Positions 5,717 to 45,962 of a stretch of 64,000 nt of DNA are shown piece by piece. Source of the DNA: Acinetobacter qingfengensis (GTDB taxonomy: Bacteria; Pseudomonadota; Gammaproteobacteria; Pseudomonadales; Moraxellaceae); NCBI RefSeq assembly GCF_008693185.1, contig NZ_VXKN01000001.1, positions 310,001 to 374,000 on the forward strand, read 5' to 3'. A program made the translations under genes and the position numbers. Below the pieces are notes generated by a model that worked only from the letters and a program-made list of their open reading frames with translations, was not told where the DNA came from and did no database searches. The stretch's first letter is position 1; each line of letters begins with the position of its first letter.

Positions 5717-6883
5717 ATGCCCATTTCAGAGACATGGTTGTTGCCTGATGGCGTAGCAGATGTTCTTCCAGAACAGGCTCAGATCATTGAGCGTTTACGC
5801 CGTCAAGCCTTAGATTTCCTTGCACAGCGTGGTTATCAGTTAGTCTACACACCATTTATTGAATATTTAGAATCTCTTTCTTCACTCAGCGCACTTAATC
5901 ACGATCTGGATTTGGTCACATTTAAAATTATTGATCAGATTTCCGGCCGTTTATTGGGTGTTCGTGCTGATATGACACCACAAGTTGCACGTATTGATGC
6001 ACATGTGCGTCCAATTGCAGGCGTTGCACGTTATTGCTACGCAGGCACTATTTTGCATACCAAACCACAAGGGCTGACGGCTTCCCGGGCACCATTACAA
6101 TTGGGTGCCGAGCTTTATGGTCATGACAGTCTGGATGCCGATCTGGAAATGATCGATACCATGTTGGGTGTGCTTGCAGTTGCAGGATATCAGCAAGGTT
6201 TGCACCTTGATCTTGGGCATGTCGGCTTGTTTAGAAGTCTAGTAAAACTGGCCGGATTGAGTAAGGATCAGGAGCTGGCTCTATCAGATTTGTATCAGCG
6301 CAAAGCTTTGCCGGAATTGAAAGATTATACTGCACAACTTGCTTTTGGCGCAGACTTTTATGAGCTTGGACGTTTGTCTGGTGATTTACAGTCACTTATT
6401 ACAGCACTGTCACCACAGACTTTACAGGATGCAGATTTTAATTACGCATTAGATAGTCTGCAAACAGCAATTGCACAAATACAAATACGTTGGCCACAAG
6501 TTCAGGTCGGTATTGATGTGGTAGAGCTGCGCAGTTATCACTATCATACCGGTCTGATGTTTGCCGTATATGCACCAAATCATGCGATGCCATTGGCTCA
6601 AGGTGGTCGTTATGATGGTATCGGTGAGCATTTTGGTCGAGCACGTCCAGCGACTGGTTTTAGTTGCGATTTATATAAACTGGTTGCTGATCAGTATAAA
6701 GATGTGGAATTGATTGTGGCTCCAGCAGGGCGTGAGCAGCAATTACAAACTGAGATTTCGACCTTGCGTGAACAAGGACATCATGTGATTCAGTTGTTGG
6801 GCGAAGATCAACTGACGTCTGTACCTCAGGCGACACATCAATTGCGATACACAGAACAAGGCTGGAAAGTCGAAAAGATTTAA
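5717..6883 (+). CDS. hisZ: ATP phosphoribosyltransferase regulatory subunit
   Basis: HisZ is a catalytically inactive paralogue of histidyl-tRNA synthetase that pairs with short-form HisG to carry out and feedback-regulate the first step of histidine synthesis. The class II synthetase-like catalytic fold is seen in TPFIEYLESL, the motif 2-like VRADMTPQVARID, and a GGRYDG motif near residue 300. The length (388) fits HisZ; the C-terminal anticodon-binding domain of true HisRS is absent, which separates the two. HisG is not in this window. The neighbour purA follows after 66 bases on the same strand, a hisZ-purA order that I recall as common in Acinetobacter and pseudomonads. Confidence 0.93.
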   Translation: MPISETWLLPDGVADVLPEQAQIIERLRRQALDFLAQRGYQLVYTPFIEYLESLSSLSALNHDLDLVTFKIIDQISGRLLGVRADMTPQVARIDAHVRPIAGVARYCYAGTILHTKPQGLTASRAPLQLGAELYGHDSLDADLEMIDTMLGVLAVAGYQQGLHLDLGHVGLFRSLVKLAGLSKDQELALSDLYQRKALPELKDYTAQLAFGADFYELGRLSGDLQSLITALSPQTLQDADFNYALDSLQTAIAQIQIRWPQVQVGIDVVELRSYHYHTGLMFAVYAPNHAMPLAQGGRYDGIGEHFGRARPATGFSCDLYKLVADQYKDVELIVAPAGREQQLQTEISTLREQGHHVIQLLGEDQLTSVPQATHQLRYTEQGWKVEKI

Positions 6884-26658: not shown

Positions 26659-26824
26659 TGAATTTGAATTGATGATTGAATTGGATCGCGTTGTTTGGCT
26701 TTATGTATATTTCTTATGCGCTTATTGTGTATTGTTATTTAAACAAATGCACCAAATGCGTTTTTATGAATTACAATACTTTTGCTAAATATCAACTACC
26801 CAGCTAATATGCAAGGAAATTGAA

Positions 26825-27451
26825 ATGACAACCATTACTTTACCCGCATTACCTTATGCGTATGATGCGCTTGAGCCACATATTTCTAAAGAAACTTTAG
26901 AATTCCATCATGATAAACATCATCAGACTTACGTCACTAATCTAAATAATCTAATCAAGGAAACTGAACTTGAAGGGAAAACTTTAGAGGAAATTATTAC
27001 TGCATCAGCAGGTGATACATCTAAAGCAGGTATTTTCAATAATGCCGCACAAGTTTGGAATCACACTTTTTACTGGAATTCACTGACACCAAATGGTGGT
27101 GGTAAACCTACTGGTGCAATTGCAGTAAAAATTGATGAAGCCTTTGGCTCATACGAAAAATTTGCAGAAGAATTTGCCAATGCGGCTGCAACACAATTTG
27201 GTTCAGGTTGGGCTTGGTTAGTTGCTGACGAGATTAATGGTAATTTATCTATCCTAAAAACTGCTAATGCGGATACTCCACTTGCACATGGCAAAATTGC
27301 TGTATTAACTATCGATGTATGGGAACATGCTTATTACATCGATTTCCGTAATGCACGTCCAAAATACATCGCGACATTCCTTGAGAGTCTTGTAAACTGG
27401 GATTATGCAAATGCCAAACTTGCAGGTCAGGAAGCTGGTGTAGAAAAATAA
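26825..27451 (+). CDS. sodB: superoxide dismutase [Fe]
   Basis: SodB converts superoxide to oxygen and hydrogen peroxide in the cytoplasm. The 208-residue protein shows the metal ligands: His near residue 27 in [11 protein letters not shown], His in [13 protein letters not shown], and Asp/His in [14 protein letters not shown]. The [11 protein letters not shown] sequence is typical of the iron type. AAGGAAATTGAA precedes the ATG at 26825. A strong terminator follows, so it is a single gene. Confidence 0.95.
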
Positions 27452-27462
27452 TTTGTTTTAAT

Positions 27463-27500
27463 AGGTTCCGGTTTTGACATAAACCGGAGCCTTATTTTTA
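27463..27500 (+). terminator. intrinsic terminator after sodB
   Basis: Arms AGGTTCCGGTTT and AAACCGGAGCCT (11 pairs, one mismatch) with a 6-base loop, followed by TATTTTTA. Directly after the sodB stop. Confidence 0.88.
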
Positions 27501-27713
27501 TCTTACTATTGCAAAGTATTACCTAATTATCATGAATAAATTGCTTGTTTATCTTATGGTTTCATTTACAAAAATTTAAATAGATCTTTAGTACTTGTCA
27601 TATATTTTTCTTTTAGAGTTGATAGACTTATTTTAGTGGGTTTTTACGGTTATTCAATTGGCTGGAAAGTATCATTTTTTTATAGAAAATGGTTTTATTT
27701 CCCCAAAAAAACT
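27501..27713. other. AT-rich region upstream of the dat leader
   Basis: About 210 bases with no gene. The sequence is very AT-rich. It should contain the start of transcription for dat; a TATGAT at 27715-27720 is a plausible -10 box, but its -35 box is not convincing. Confidence 0.4.
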
Positions 27714-27720
27714 GTATGAT

Positions 27721-27836
27721 CGGCTGCCTAGGACTAAGATAGAGAACACAGCAATTATCCTAAACTAGCTATTGGCATAAGTCTTTATAAATGAAGACTT
27801 ATTTTTTTCTACCCTTATCAGAGATGGTAATCCGAT
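27721..27836 (+). promoter_or_regulatory. dat leader region, candidate transcription attenuator
   Basis: From a possible -10 TATGAT (27715-27720), about 110 bases of untranslated RNA would precede dat. It contains a complete intrinsic terminator 35 bases before the start codon. The segment AGGACT at 27730-27735 can pair with AGTCTT at 27780-27785, the left arm of that terminator, giving a possible antiterminator. No leader peptide is obvious. The ligand or factor, if any, is unknown. Confidence 0.45.
27777..27809 (+). terminator. intrinsic terminator-like hairpin inside the dat leader
   Basis: Perfect 9-bp stem ATAAGTCTT / AAGACTTAT with an 8-base loop (27786-27793), followed by seven T residues. 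It lies between the presumed promoter and dat, not after a gene. Confidence 0.75.
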
Positions 27837-29213
27837 ATGAGCGTATCTTTAAACGATCCAACTGCAACTGCCAAAACTAACGAATATTACTTGACTCGCC
27901 AAAGTCAGATGGAATCAAATGTTCGTAGTTATCCTCGTAAATTACCTTTAGCGATTGCGAAAGCGAAGGGCTGTTGGATCACCGATGTTGAGGGCAATGA
28001 ATACCTCGACTGTCTAGCTGGTGCAGGCACTTTGGCCCTTGGTCACAACCATCCTGCTGTTATTCAAAGTATTCAGGACACACTGGCAAGCGGTTTGCCA
28101 TTACATACACTGGATTTGACGACACCGTTAAAAGATGCCTTTACAGAAAATCTTTTGTCGTTTCTTCCTGGTGGAAAACAAGAGTACTGCTTACAATTCT
28201 GTGGTCCATCCGGTGCAGACGCAACCGAAGCAGCCATCAAACTTGCTAAAACCTATACTGGTCGTGCAAATGTGATCAGTTTTTCAGGTGGTTATCATGG
28301 TATGACACATGGTTCCTTGGCCATGACAGGTAATTTAAGTGCCAAAAATGCCGTGAATGGTTTAATGCCAGGCGTACAATTTATGCCTTATCCGCATGAA
28401 TATCGATGCCCACTAGGGATCGGCGGTGAAGCTGGTGTAAATGCCTTAACGTATTATTTTGAACAATTCATTGAAGATGTAGAAAGCGGTGTAACCCGTC
28501 CTGCGGCAGTTATTCTCGAAGCCATTCAGGGTGAAGGTGGTGTGGTTGTTGCACCAACAAAATGGCTGAAAAAAATTCGTGAAGTCACTGAGAAACATAA
28601 TATTGTCTTGATTCTCGATGAAGTTCAGGCCGGTTTTGCACGTTCTGGAAAAATGTTTGCCTTTGAACATACAGGCATTGAACCTGATGTTGTGGTGATG
28701 TCTAAAGCGGTAGGTGGTAGCTTGCCACTTGCAGTATTGGCAATTAAACGTAAATTCGATGCATGGCAACCTGCTGGTCACACCGGAACTTTCCGTGGTA
28801 ACCAATTGGCGATGGGTACAGGCTTAGCGACTTTAACGGCTATCAAACAAGATAAACTTGCTGAAAATGCCCAAGAGCGTGGTGAGTTTTTACAAGCTGA
28901 GTTAAAAAAACTGGCACAAGATTTTCATTGTATTGGCCATGTGCGTGGTCGTGGTTTGATGATCGGCATTGAAATTATTGACGAAAATCAACCAGCAGAT
29001 CATTTAGGTGCTTATCCTGCGGATTCTCAGTTGGCAGCAGCAATTCAAACAGCATGTTTTAACAATAAGTTAATGCTGGAAAAAGGCGGACGTAATGGTA
29101 CAGTTATCCGTTTACTTTGCCCATTAATTATCACTCAGGAAGAATGCGAAGAAGTCCTTAAACGCTTCAAAAAAGCTGTGGCTGAAGCATTAGTTGCAGT
29201 GCGAGGCAAATAA
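27837..29213 (+). CDS. dat: L-2,4-diaminobutyrate:2-oxoglutarate aminotransferase
   Basis: Dat makes L-2,4-diaminobutyrate from aspartate semialdehyde and glutamate, the first step to 1,3-diaminopropane. It is a class III aminotransferase of 458 residues. The PLP-binding lysine lies in [14 protein letters not shown], the aspartate contacting the PLP ring in [14 protein letters not shown], and the phosphate-binding glycine loop in [16 protein letters not shown]. ddc follows only 3 bases after its stop, so the two form an operon. The Dat/Ddc pair is a hallmark of Acinetobacter. Upstream lies a leader containing a terminator. Confidence 0.96.
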
Positions 29214-29216
29214 TAC

Positions 29217-30752
29217 ATGGTAGATTTTGCAAAGCACCGTCAAGCACTACTTTGCAATGATGCACAATCCATTGCTGACTATCAGTCAGCAATGGAACAG
29301 GCTGTTAAAGCAGTTGCTGCATGGTTGCAAAATGACAAAATGTACACAGGCGGCAGCATTAAACAGCTCCGTTCTGTCATTGCATTTCAGCCTTCAAAAG
29401 AAGGGATGGGACTTGAAGGTGCATTAAAGCGTTCAGTAGAATTATTTCTGAATAAAAGCCTGAAGGTACATCATCCACATTCTCTGGCACATTTACATTG
29501 TCCAACCATGGTCACCAGTCAGATTGCTGAAGTCCTAATTAATGCCACCAACCAGTCTATGGATTCATGGGATCAAAGTCCGGCCGGTTCATTGATGGAA
29601 GTTCAGTTGATTGACTGGTTGCGCCAGAAAGTTGGTTTTGGTGCGGGTCAGGCTGGTGTATTTACTTCTGGTGGTACACAATCTAATTTAATGGGTGTAT
29701 TACTGGCACGTGACTGGGCGATTGCCAAACACTGGAAAAATGCCGATGGTCAGGAATGGTCAGTACAACGTGATGGCTTGCCAGTAGAAGCATTAAGTAA
29801 AGTCAAAGTTATATGTTCTGAAAATGCCCATTTCTCCGTGCAGAAGAATATGGCAATGATGGGAATGGGCTTTCAGTCTGTGGTGACTGTTCCAGTAAAT
29901 GACAAGGCACAAATTGATGTTGATGCTTTGGAAAAAACAATGGCACATTTGACTGCTGAAGGTAAAATTATTGCCTGTGTCGTTGCAACTGCCGGAACCA
30001 CCGATGCTGGTGCAATTGATCCAATCCAAAAAATTCGTGCATTAACAACACAGTATGGTGCATGGATGCATGTCGATGCAGCATGGGGTGGCGCATTAAT
30101 TTTATCGAATGATTATCGTCATTGGTTAGATGGTATTGAAACTGTAGACTCAGTCACACTGGATTTTCACAAGCACTATTTCCAAAGCATTAGCTGTGGT
30201 GCATTTCTGCTTAAAGATGAAGCTAATTACCGTTTTATGCATTATGAAGCGGAATATTTGAATTCAGCTTACGATGAAGAGCATGGTGTTCCTAATCTGG
30301 TTTCTAAATCTTTACAAACCACACGCCGTTTTGATGCATTGAAACTGTGGATGACGATTGAAGCATTAGGTGAAGAACTTTATGGTTCAATGATTGATCA
30401 TGGCGTCAATCTAACGCGTGATGTTGCTGCTTATATTCAGGCAACAGAAGATTTAGAGCTTTTGGTTGAACCACAATTTGCTTCGGTATTATTCCGTGTT
30501 GTTCCAAAGGATTATCCTGAAGAATTTATTGATAGCCTGAACCAGAATGTTGCAGATGAGTTATTTGCACGTGGTGAAGCAAATATTGGAGTAACCAAAG
30601 TTGGTGCGGTACAATCACTGAAGATGACCACATTAAGTCCTGTGGCAACACTGGATAATGTGAAAAATCTTTTGGCACTTGTATTGACTGAGGCAAATCG
30701 TATCAAAGATGCAATCGTTGCTGGTCGTTATACACCAGCAATTGATGAATAG
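29217..30752 (+). CDS. ddc: L-2,4-diaminobutyrate decarboxylase
   Basis: Ddc decarboxylates L-2,4-diaminobutyrate to 1,3-diaminopropane, a major polyamine of the genus. It is a group II PLP-dependent decarboxylase of 511 residues. The PLP lysine is in LDFHKHYFQ, the PLP-stacking histidine region in [12 protein letters not shown], and the ring-nitrogen aspartate in [10 protein letters not shown]. The ATG at 29217 is 3 bases after the dat stop; translation is probably coupled. Two hairpins follow the stop codon, the second a strong terminator. Confidence 0.96.
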
Positions 30753-39578: not shown

Positions 39579-39738
39579 CTTACTGATTGCTTGCAAAAAA
39601 GCTAAAAATATATGTAAAAATGTTGTTGCTTTGTGTTTTTGCACGAAATAAATATTAGTGCTAAAACACATTTTGTTATGCTAGCACGGATTTTACACCG
39701 TATTTGCAAGATTTATATGATTTCTGGATGGTTGATTG

Positions 39739-40545
39739 ATGTCTAATAAAAAGGCTTTTTATTCTGTAACGCTGATCAGTGCAACTTTACTGATGGTGGG
39801 TTGTGCATCACAACCGACCGTATCATCATCACGGCAGTTTTATATACCTGAATATTATACTGTGCAACCAGGTGATAGTTTAAGTAAAATCGCTGCTCGT
39901 TATAATTTGGATTACACAGAAATTGCTCGTTTGAATAATATCAACACAATGGATAAAATTTATGTCAGTCAATCATTGCGACTGAGAGGATCAGCACAAT
40001 CCACACCACGTTTGGTGCAAACTCGTCCAATTGAGCAACCGATCCAGATTCAGCGACAAAGTGTGGCACAACAAGCACAAAATCATAGTGTACCAGAGCA
40101 AGCTCCTGTAGTGCAGCCACAAATTCAAACTGGATCAACCTCAACGCCCACTGTTACAACACCGTCTAGTAGCAGTCAGATTCGCTGGGTATTACCAAGT
40201 AAAGGCCCGATTTTGCAGCGTTTTAATTTGAATCAGGACATTAAAGGTCTGTTTTTTGGTGGAAATAGCGGCGATCCGATTTATGCTGCTGCTGCGGGTG
40301 AAGTGGTATATGCTGATGATGGTTTAAAGGAGTATGGTAAATTAATTCTGATTCGTCATACCAATGGTTATATTACTGCGTATGCACACAACAGTAAATT
40401 ATTGACCAAAGTTGGGGATAAAGTACAAGCAGGTCAGAAAATTGCAGAAATGGGTAATACTGGTACGAATCGAACATGGTTGCAATTTCAGATTCGTCTG
40501 GATGGAAAACCGATTGACCCCTCAACTTTACTACCGATAAGTTGA
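39739..40545 (+). CDS. NlpD-like lipoprotein, LysM plus degenerate M23 domain
   Basis: Outer membrane lipoprotein that, in other species, activates cell-division amidases. The lipobox is LLMVGC with the lipidated Cys at residue 22 from the ATG at 39739 (a TTG directly before it is possible). A LysM domain (about 38-82, YTVQPGDSLSKIAARYNL) is followed by a Gln-rich linker and a LytM/M23 domain (about 150-268). The catalytic zinc ligands are lost: the HxGxD region reads IKGLFFGG and the HxH region reads TWLQFQIR. It is therefore an activator, not an endopeptidase. The linker of about 60 residues is low complexity. Confidence 0.88.
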   Translation: MSNKKAFYSVTLISATLLMVGCASQPTVSSSRQFYIPEYYTVQPGDSLSKIAARYNLDYTEIARLNNINTMDKIYVSQSLRLRGSAQSTPRLVQTRPIEQPIQIQRQSVAQQAQNHSVPEQAPVVQPQIQTGSTSTPTVTTPSSSSQIRWVLPSKGPILQRFNLNQDIKGLFFGGNSGDPIYAAAAGEVVYADDGLKEYGKLILIRHTNGYITAYAHNSKLLTKVGDKVQAGQKIAEMGNTGTNRTWLQFQIRLDGKPIDPSTLLPIS

Positions 40546-44387: not shown

Positions 44388-45962
44388 TTAGTGACGGAAG
44401 TGGCGCATTCCTGTAAATACCATGGCGATACCATGTTCATTTGCTGCTGCAATAACTTCTTGGTCGCGCATGGAACCACCTGGCTGAATGATACATTTGA
44501 TTCCAGCTTTTGCTGCATTGTCAATACCATCCCGGAAAGGAAAGAAGGCATCAGATGCCATCACAGCACCTTCAACAACAAGACCGGCATGTTCTGCTTT
44601 AATTGCTGCAATACGTGCTGAGTTGACACGGCTCATTTGACCTGCACCGACACCGATAGTTTGACGATTTTTTGCATATACAATCGCATTGGATTTGACG
44701 TATTTAGCCACTTTCCATGCAAAAATTAAATCATCAATTTCTTGTTCAGTTGGTGTGCGTGTTGTTACAACTTTCAGGTCAGCTGCTTTAATCATGCCTA
44801 AATCCTGATCCTGAACCAGTAAGCCACCATTTACACGTTTAAAGTCCAGTTGCGCAGCGCGTTCATTAATTGATGGTAATTCACCACAAATTAGAACTCG
44901 GACATTTTTCTTGGCACCAGTTACTTCAAGTACCCCATCAGCAATTGCCGGTGCGATAATCACTTCAACAAACTGACGCTCTACAATCGCTTGTGCTGTT
45001 GCAACATCTAACTCACGGTTAAATGCAATAATTCCACCAAAAGCAGATTCAGGGTCAGTCGTATAAGCCAAGTCGTAAGCTGTTTTAATTCCATCCAGTG
45101 ATACGGCAACACCACATGGATTGGCATGTTTTACAATTACACAGGCAGGTTTTGCAAATGATTTGACGCATTCCAGTGCTGCATCAGTATCGGCAATATT
45201 GTTGTAGGATAATTCTTTACCCTGTAATTGTTTTGCAGTAGAAACGGAGGCTTCTTTTGCTGCCGAGTCAACATAGAATGCAGCGGATTGATGTGGATTT
45301 TCGCCGTAACGTAAATCTTGTGCTTTGTTAAGTTGCAGATTGAATGTACGGGCAAATTGATCTGCTTCACCTTCTTTTTTGCCAACGCGGGCACCTAGAT
45401 ACTGGGCGATCATGCCATCGTATTGTGCAGTATGTTCAAAGGCTTTAACTGCTAAATCAAAACGTGTTGCCTGTGATAATTCACCACTGGTTTTAAGTTC
45501 TGCTACTACAGCATCATAATCACTTGCGTTGACAATAATGCCGACAGATGCATGGTTTTTCGCAGCAGCACGAACCATGGTTGGCCCGCCAATATCAATG
45601 TTTTCAATGGCATCAGCCAGAGAGCAATCTGCTTTGGCAACAGTGGCTGCAAATGGGTATAAATTTACAATCACCAGATCAATCGGGTCAATCTGATGTT
45701 GCTGCATTACAGCCTCATCAAGACCGCGGCGTGCCAGAATGCCACCATGAATTTTTGGATGCAGGGTTTTAACTCGACCGTCCATCATTTCAGGAAAACC
45801 AGTATGTTCTGATACTTCTACTACTGCAATTTGATTTTCTTTCAGTAGTTTATAAGTTCCACCAGTAGAAAGGATTTCGATCCCTAGTTGCGCCAATGCT
45901 CTGGCGAAGTCAACAATACCTGTTTTATCAGATACAGAAATTAAAGCACGAGAAACTGTCAT
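44388..45962 (-). CDS. purH: bifunctional AICAR transformylase/IMP cyclohydrolase
   Basis: PurH carries out the last two steps to IMP. The N-terminal IMP cyclohydrolase domain (about residues 1-200) has [12 protein letters not shown] and STGGTYKLL, and the C-terminal AICAR transformylase domain has [14 protein letters not shown] with the Lys-His active-site pair, plus [18 protein letters not shown]. The length of 524 is normal. purD follows. fis lies about 75 bases upstream on the same strand, and a terminator separates it. Confidence 0.97.

Follow-up and report, generated by a model that had tools for sequence, protein, structure and literature searches.

The dat mRNA of Acinetobacter qingfengensis may carry a two-part cis-acting leader, with an attenuator-type hairpin first and a translational operator behind it at the start codon, and this leader would place the gene under feedback from its own pathway; we give this reading a probability of about one half. 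The window, the whole 64,000-nt stretch that we analyzed and to which all coordinates refer, contains the putative diaminobutyrate aminotransferase gene dat (27837-29213, + strand, 458 aa) and, next in the operon, the putative diaminobutyrate decarboxylase gene ddc (29217-30752, + strand, 511 aa). Both are open reading frames whose names come from an earlier note on this DNA. That note had also described the dat leader as a possible attenuator or riboswitch switched by a segment AGGACT; a cis-acting leader survives our analysis in its general form, but the AGGACT switch does not.

Upstream of dat lies sodB (26825-27451), with its own terminator at 27463-27492. Ahead of sodB (26780-26824), an ACCCAGC motif and GCAAGGAA are kept in the six rows shown of the sodB alignment, and a second superoxide-dismutase-like gene (G000:C2:402869-403453) has 49% identity to the sodB of the window. 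Relatives of dat are present in 173 of 175 genomes of the genus, and a search for ddc relatives succeeded in 10 of 10 genomes. Among 10 genomes compared outside the main Acinetobacter group, six have ddc 4.5 to 8.4 kb away from dat (G247, G184, G216, G234, G220 and G148); in the other four (G225, G256, G180 and G213), the distance is about 0.75 kb in two, and ddc follows within about 250 bases in two. The leader model described below matches at dat only.

We read the dat upstream regions of 162 of the 173 genomes with dat (150 loci plus 12 more; 11 were not included). A TAT[CTG]AT box that starts 119-135 nt before the ATG is present in 149 of 150 Acinetobacter upstream regions. In the window, this conserved -10-like box is TATGAT (27715-27720, + strand), 122 bases upstream of the dat ATG, and it is likely part of the dat promoter. 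Because the box is so widely kept, transcription of dat likely starts near 27726-27729. A scan for consensus promoters did not list the TATGAT promoter and found no other + strand promoter in the dat upstream region. Only 28 bases separate the T tract of the terminator-like hairpin from the ATG, and they are occupied by the conserved start-codon element; hence RNA polymerase very probably cannot reach dat without crossing the hairpin.

The hairpin itself (27777-27802, + strand) was found as the earlier note had claimed, well past the sodB terminator. Its perfect 9-bp stem pairs ATAAGTCTT (27777-27785) with AAGACTTAT (27794-27802), and the predicted fold adds T27786-G27793 and A27787-T27792 to give 11 bp around a TAAA loop. 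With a predicted energy of -9.3 kcal/mol and a T6 tract (27803-27808, + strand) directly behind it, this is a stable stem-loop immediately before a U run, as expected of an intrinsic terminator. From the end of the stem to the dat ATG there are 34 bases, in agreement with the distance of about 35 bases given previously. Its hairpin-plus-T-tract score of 14.2 was matched by one of 1000 dinucleotide shuffles of the 125 bases upstream. A simple terminator scanner that needs three G-C pairs did not report the hairpin, which has two, and the dat leader as a whole folds no better than shuffles (z -0.99 and -0.66).

Having a terminator-like hairpin upstream does not in itself set dat apart, since nine of the 43 ORFs in the window, dat included, have an upstream score of at least 8 and three of the others outscore dat. 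Strong hairpins of this kind precede the ORFs at 44388-45962 (-), 39736-40545 (+) and 5717-6883 (+), at 47, 65 and 50 bases from the start, respectively. What is unusual at dat is that the hairpin sits inside a conserved leader with scarcely any room for a promoter behind it.

The dat leaders are homologous across the genus and fall into two main types. The window clade (L002, L003, L004, L009, L010, L033 and, among named genomes, L326) has a 5′ hairpin with arms UAGGA/UCCUA followed by the terminator. The terminator stem of the clade reads AAGTC/GACTT in some members and AAGTT/AACTT in others (among them L009, L010 and L033), so that pairing is kept through changes on both sides. Predicted hairpin energies are -9.3 to -10.5 kcal/mol in three members, -5.6 in L326 and -4.9 in L009, L010 and L033, where the T tract is also poorer. 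A mixed alignment of both leader types and an RNAalifold run on the clade were set aside; because the alignment misplaced the 3′ arm of the terminator, we read the window clade by hand and by hairpin scoring.

In the window, the predicted 5′ hairpin (P1; 27729-27762, + strand) pairs UAGGA at 27729-27733 with UCCUA at 27758-27762 and is extended by UAA/UUA. Its arms UAGGA/UCCUA are identical in seven of seven clade members, and we place it as the counterpart of the covarying P1 of the main type. The AGGACT segment (27730-27735, + strand), proposed as a rival partner for the terminator, can pair with 27780-27785 as stated and is more likely part of the left arm of P1. This pairing spans 6 bp in the window, 8 bp in L003 and L004, 5 bp in L326 and 4 bp in L009 and L033, and it is shifted in L010, where its 6 bp include two G-U pairs. 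Forcing it in the window gives -4.7 kcal/mol against -16.3 kcal/mol for P1 plus the terminator, a cost of 11.6 kcal/mol, and in seven of seven clade members it lies 6.8 to 12.8 kcal/mol above the most stable fold predicted for the leader as far as the T tract. In the longer L003 leader, the AGGACT pairing is the predicted best structure. A conserved, mutually exclusive antiterminator is thus not apparent within the clade: the pairing is reduced or shifted in three of seven members and costly in all seven. Within the clade, the stem is kept, and the rival pairing is not kept in the form found in the window in L009, L010 and L033.

The strong terminator is a trait of part of the window clade. 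Leaders of the main type have a 5′ hairpin CUAGUUA/UAACUAG, in which four of seven pairs show changes on both sides; a control in which the partners were slid by one column also gave four such pairs, but with far fewer paired cells. Their downstream hairpin is conserved, imperfect (AAAG-CACC-GAGUC-AAAG-GAC..GUC-ACCC-GACUU-AUUU-CUUU), weak (-4.6 to -5.9 kcal/mol, and -2.7 in Comamonas) and a poor terminator. In L008 and others, it comprises three short helices with two 4x4 internal loops of near-constant sequence, and it yields no covariation evidence because the two inner helices are invariant in the 40 representatives. We also considered a shorter hairpin, AAGUC-ACCC-GACUU, as the main-type terminator and rejected it as not general; L012, L055 and L176 break it and keep the GAGUC/GACUU pair.

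We scored hairpins in chosen leaders (seven from the clade, 24 of the main type and 18 from other genera, with 20 shuffles each). The hairpin ends 34-38 bases before the ATG in all seven clade leaders and in 22 of the 24 main-type leaders (35-38 bases in the main type); in L176 and L289, the best hairpin lies elsewhere. Among the 18 leaders from other genera, six have their best hairpin at -36 to -37 or at -34. Their energies in kcal/mol, with the number of shuffles out of 20 that scored as well, are -13.3 (0) for L184, -11.6 (1) for L191, -8.2 (1) for L201, -6.5 (0) for L204, -5.3 (2) for L193 and -3.9 (7) for L178. The best hairpin of the remaining 12 lies elsewhere, and L177, L181, L192 and L222 show nothing clear above the shuffles. 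A T-rich stretch shortly before the ACCC of the start-codon element also occurs in main-type Acinetobacter leaders and in many of those from other genera, but not in Neisseria.

The start-codon element, ACCCTTATCAGAGATGGTAATCCGATATGAGCGT (27811-27844, + strand), is conserved far more widely than the strong terminator. Both GATGGTAATYCGATATGAG and GATGGTAAT[TC]CGATATGAG occur exactly in 150 of 150 Acinetobacter dat upstream regions. At -36 to -1, 28 of 36 columns are invariant at dat (29 genomes), compared to 4 of 36 at sodB (29 genomes) and 0 of 36 at each of two other control genes (29 and 17 genomes). The set of 17 results from dropping nine of 26 loci that lacked an ATG near the expected start; the second sodB match (L365) and a partial one (L395) were excluded from the comparison, and the dat set of 29 does not contain the control genomes G079 and G128.

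The consensus ACCCnTATCnGAGATGGTAATYCGATATGAG is near-invariant at dat in Acinetobacter and much of Moraxella, and it also occurs at dat in Neisseria, Wohlfahrtiimonas and Comamonas. In the named genomes, the pattern GAGATGGTAATYNGATATGAG was found in at least 119 stretches, each time at the start of a dat-like ORF. The matches listed and the window together give 120 ORFs, of which 102 are full length and 18 are cut by the end of the stretch; an ESN motif lies near the N-terminus in 118 of these 120, and the remaining two are cut short. The listed carriers comprise Acinetobacter and Moraxella, including bovoculi, catarrhalis, macacae, oculi and cuniculi, together with two Wohlfahrtiimonas, Comamonas avium, Neisseria iguanae and Neisseria weixii. 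The pattern is present in only four of 390 genomes of the order, all within the family of the window. The element is missing from dat in L182, L203 and the loci of genera g9 and g10, and is partial in L186.

To follow the leader as a whole, we used a covariance model of 40 main-type representatives out of 43 picked; L137 was excluded because its -10 box was not recognized. The model gave one match in each of 111 of 249 family genomes. Twenty of the 111 matches come from two other genera, and by coordinates each of the 20 is immediately upstream of dat; matches within the genus were compared to dat coordinates by spot checks. The upstream leader differs in most members of those two genera, and the start-codon element is kept in most. 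Wohlfahrtiimonas and Comamonas have both the main-type hairpin region and the element, with the 5′ hairpin of Wohlfahrtiimonas written in other letters, and Neisseria has only the start-codon element. We note that Wohlfahrtiimonas, Comamonas avium and two Neisseria species appear to have received dat together with its leader or start element (L226, L290, L305, L231 and L235).

The fourfold degenerate sites of dat are just 30-55% identical to those of the window in the 14 loci measured, so selection rather than recent origin keeps the element. The persistence of the element alongside dat in foreign hosts suggests that its effector probably comes from the pathway of dat itself or is the ribosome; a small RNA or repressor specific to one host is hard to reconcile with its presence in Neisseria, Comamonas and Wohlfahrtiimonas.

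When the closing pair is imposed, the element is predicted to fold into a hairpin at 27816-27837 (+ strand). UAUC (27816-27819) would pair with GAUA (27834-27837) and GA (27821-27822) with UC (27831-27832), which places the ribosome-contact bases GAUGGUAA (27823-27830) in the loop and lets the AUG begin in the 3′ arm. Under this constraint the hairpin is possible in all variants; under free folding, several variants, including that of the window (row L224), prefer another small hairpin around the ribosome site. The distant variants L180, L186, L191 and L193 re-form the predicted hairpin with different arms. In an arm-swap test on 13 arm pairs, 1163 of 20,000 permutations did as well, a result that is only suggestive. 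Because the hairpin is weak and mostly invariant, its support from covariation is thin, and we regard the predicted structure as suggestive. An alternative hairpin at the ribosome site, ACC/GGU plus AUC/GAU, may also form; it fits the indels and is nearly invariant. We did not adopt it, and L180 is better explained by the start-codon hairpin.

Two positions, 27815 and 27832, vary in step, with A accompanied by T, and T or C accompanied by C. On a tree of 102 full-length dat genes, at least six changes are required at 27815, at least four at 27832 and at least six jointly, from which it follows that all four changes at 27832 can coincide with a change at 27815. The common combinations have predicted energies of -5.2, -3.1 and -2.7 kcal/mol, and the unseen combinations A/C and T/T would give -7.1 and -1.2 kcal/mol, respectively; only Wohlfahrtiimonas departs, with C and T at -0.8 kcal/mol. 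On these modeled energies, the coupling looks like selection for a hairpin of middling strength. The two sites are 17 nt apart, and recombination could also have carried them together as one block.

The element can also be likened to a long, imperfect complement of the 16S rRNA tail: TGAGATGGTAATCC and TAAGGAGGTGATCC are identical at 10 of 14 positions, and AGAGATGGTAATCC of the window itself is identical to the complement at 9 of 14. The sequence GGATCACCTCCTTA, which we take to be the usual 16S tail, has a single occurrence in this genome. AAGGA, found in the rows of sodB and g869, is absent from the element; L191 and L193 carry GGAG there.

The earlier note had seen no leader peptide, and we likewise found no conserved short ORF: among + strand starts present in at least 10 of 117 distinct Acinetobacter leaders, only an AUG at -13 is universal. 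The frame that this out-of-frame AUG begins (27824-27880), MVIRYER, overlaps with the start of dat in each of the 117 distinct leaders and is stopped or altered in L180, L185 and L191. Candidate leader peptides and an antisense ORF showed no conservation beyond the constant bases and were rejected.

Several other explanations bear on these observations. The leader could be without regulatory function, a constitutive, leaky terminator in one clade being combined with an unusual fixed translation start that pairs imperfectly with the 16S end and initiates at a constant rate. The single occurrence of the usual 16S tail in this genome would be in keeping with that view, as would the lack of the AAGGA seen at sodB and g869 in an element where L191 and L193 have GGAG, and the weakness of the main-type hairpin. 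However, a ribosome site alone would not be expected to fix about 30 bases on both sides or to produce coupled changes at 27815 and 27832, and three other start regions in the genus are not so conserved; we consider an unregulated leader unlikely, if plausible. By analogy to a phage coat protein at its operator, the Dat protein might instead bind the start-codon hairpin and repress its own translation. The retention of the element sequence with dat in foreign hosts and the predicted placement of the start codon in the stem speak for such autoregulation, which we rate as rather unlikely in this specific form. Ddc would be a less likely regulator than Dat, because it is encoded far from dat in six of the 10 genomes above and because there is one leader match per genome, at dat.

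Control could also act at the level of DNA, the element being an operator for a DNA-binding regulator. In main-type leaders, the start codon does lie within an inverted repeat, CATATC and GATATG; Moraxella, Neisseria and the window (CTTATC) do not preserve this repeat, Neisseria and Comamonas would also need a regulator to match, and the element lies about 100 bases inside the expected transcript, which together make a DNA operator very unlikely. The least probable of these explanations, in our view, is that of the earlier note, in which AGGACT would pair with the left arm of the terminator and ligand level would thereby set read-through. The pairing does exist, it would preclude P1 as well as the terminator, it belongs to the predicted best structure of the longer L003 leader, and a terminator-acting spermidine riboswitch is known (PMC10853860). 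Against it stand its reduction to 4 bp in L009 and L033 and its shift in L010, the lack of such a segment in the main type and the energy penalty in all seven clade members. We do not accept AGGACT as a switch because of this cost and because the same bases form P1.

We return to the two-part leader. The dat mRNA would start near 27727, and the first part of its leader would consist of the 5′ hairpin, the attenuator-type hairpin and the U-rich tract behind it. In the window clade, the intrinsic terminator would end part of the transcripts as an RNA of about 80 nt. RNA that reads through would expose the conserved start-codon hairpin, with GAUGGUAA in the loop and the AUG in the stem, and this hairpin would limit translation of dat. 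A pathway-linked effector, whether 1,3-diaminopropane, diaminobutyrate or Dat, may shift one or both hairpins and so set 1,3-diaminopropane synthesis by feedback. The distribution of the two parts fits a leader that would act on transcription read-through in some lineages and on translation wherever the element is present. We infer the start site, the states of the hairpins in the cell, the regulation and the effector from the sequence. A bolder version, in which the 34-nt element is itself a very small riboswitch or RNA sensor that responds to 1,3-diaminopropane or diaminobutyrate, accompanies dat from one bacterial class to another and is backed in some lineages by a separate terminator hairpin, strikes us as speculative and improbable.

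Structured mRNA leaders are a known kind of regulatory element; as a family, the dat leader appears undescribed within the literature searched and Rfam. Rfam 15 gave no gathering-level match in the window, and relaxed searches returned nothing relevant at E values up to 5 (27400-27900) or up to 1 (four other loci). By title or abstract, we found no paper on the dat leader, and our literature search found nothing on control of 1,3-diaminopropane synthesis. The terms ddc, diaminobutyrate, diaminopropane and riboswitch are absent from the main texts of PMC11472050 and PMC12802169.

Known systems offer partial parallels. Attenuators of amino-acid operons are of the terminator/antiterminator type. 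The dat leader resembles them in that a complete terminator lies downstream of the likely promoter and ahead of the first gene, and differs in having neither a conserved leader peptide nor a conserved antiterminator. In the MS2/R17 coat-protein operator, a small hairpin holds the ribosome site and start codon, and the bound repressor or the fold limits initiation; the predicted dat start-codon hairpin would work in a similar way in outline. The preQ1-I and other riboswitches are about 35 nt long and overlap the ribosome site. In size and in this overlap the dat element is similar, but it has no Rfam match and no established pseudoknot.

The closest case by pathway is the Spermidine-I riboswitch, a SAM-I variant reported in Bacillus, Trichococcus and relatives, where polyamine-synthesis genes are switched off through an intrinsic terminator (PMC10853860). 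Both are leaders of polyamine-synthesis genes with an intrinsic terminator. The Spermidine-I aptamer is a SAM-I variant, whereas the dat leader has no SAM-type Rfam match, and the conserved part of the dat leader surrounds the start codon rather than lying upstream of the terminator. Because the spermidine riboswitch is known, product feedback on polyamine genes has precedent (PMC10853860).

1,3-Diaminopropane is described as Acinetobacter-specific among polyamine makers (PMC10267138), and mutants of dat and of ddc grow poorly and no longer show surface motility (PMC7997844). With an RNA element that is specific to dat, recurs across genera and offers defined bases for mutation, the control of 1,3-diaminopropane synthesis becomes directly testable. 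If it is true that the element senses the product of the pathway, it would be a further polyamine-sensing RNA beside the spermidine riboswitch (PMC10853860).
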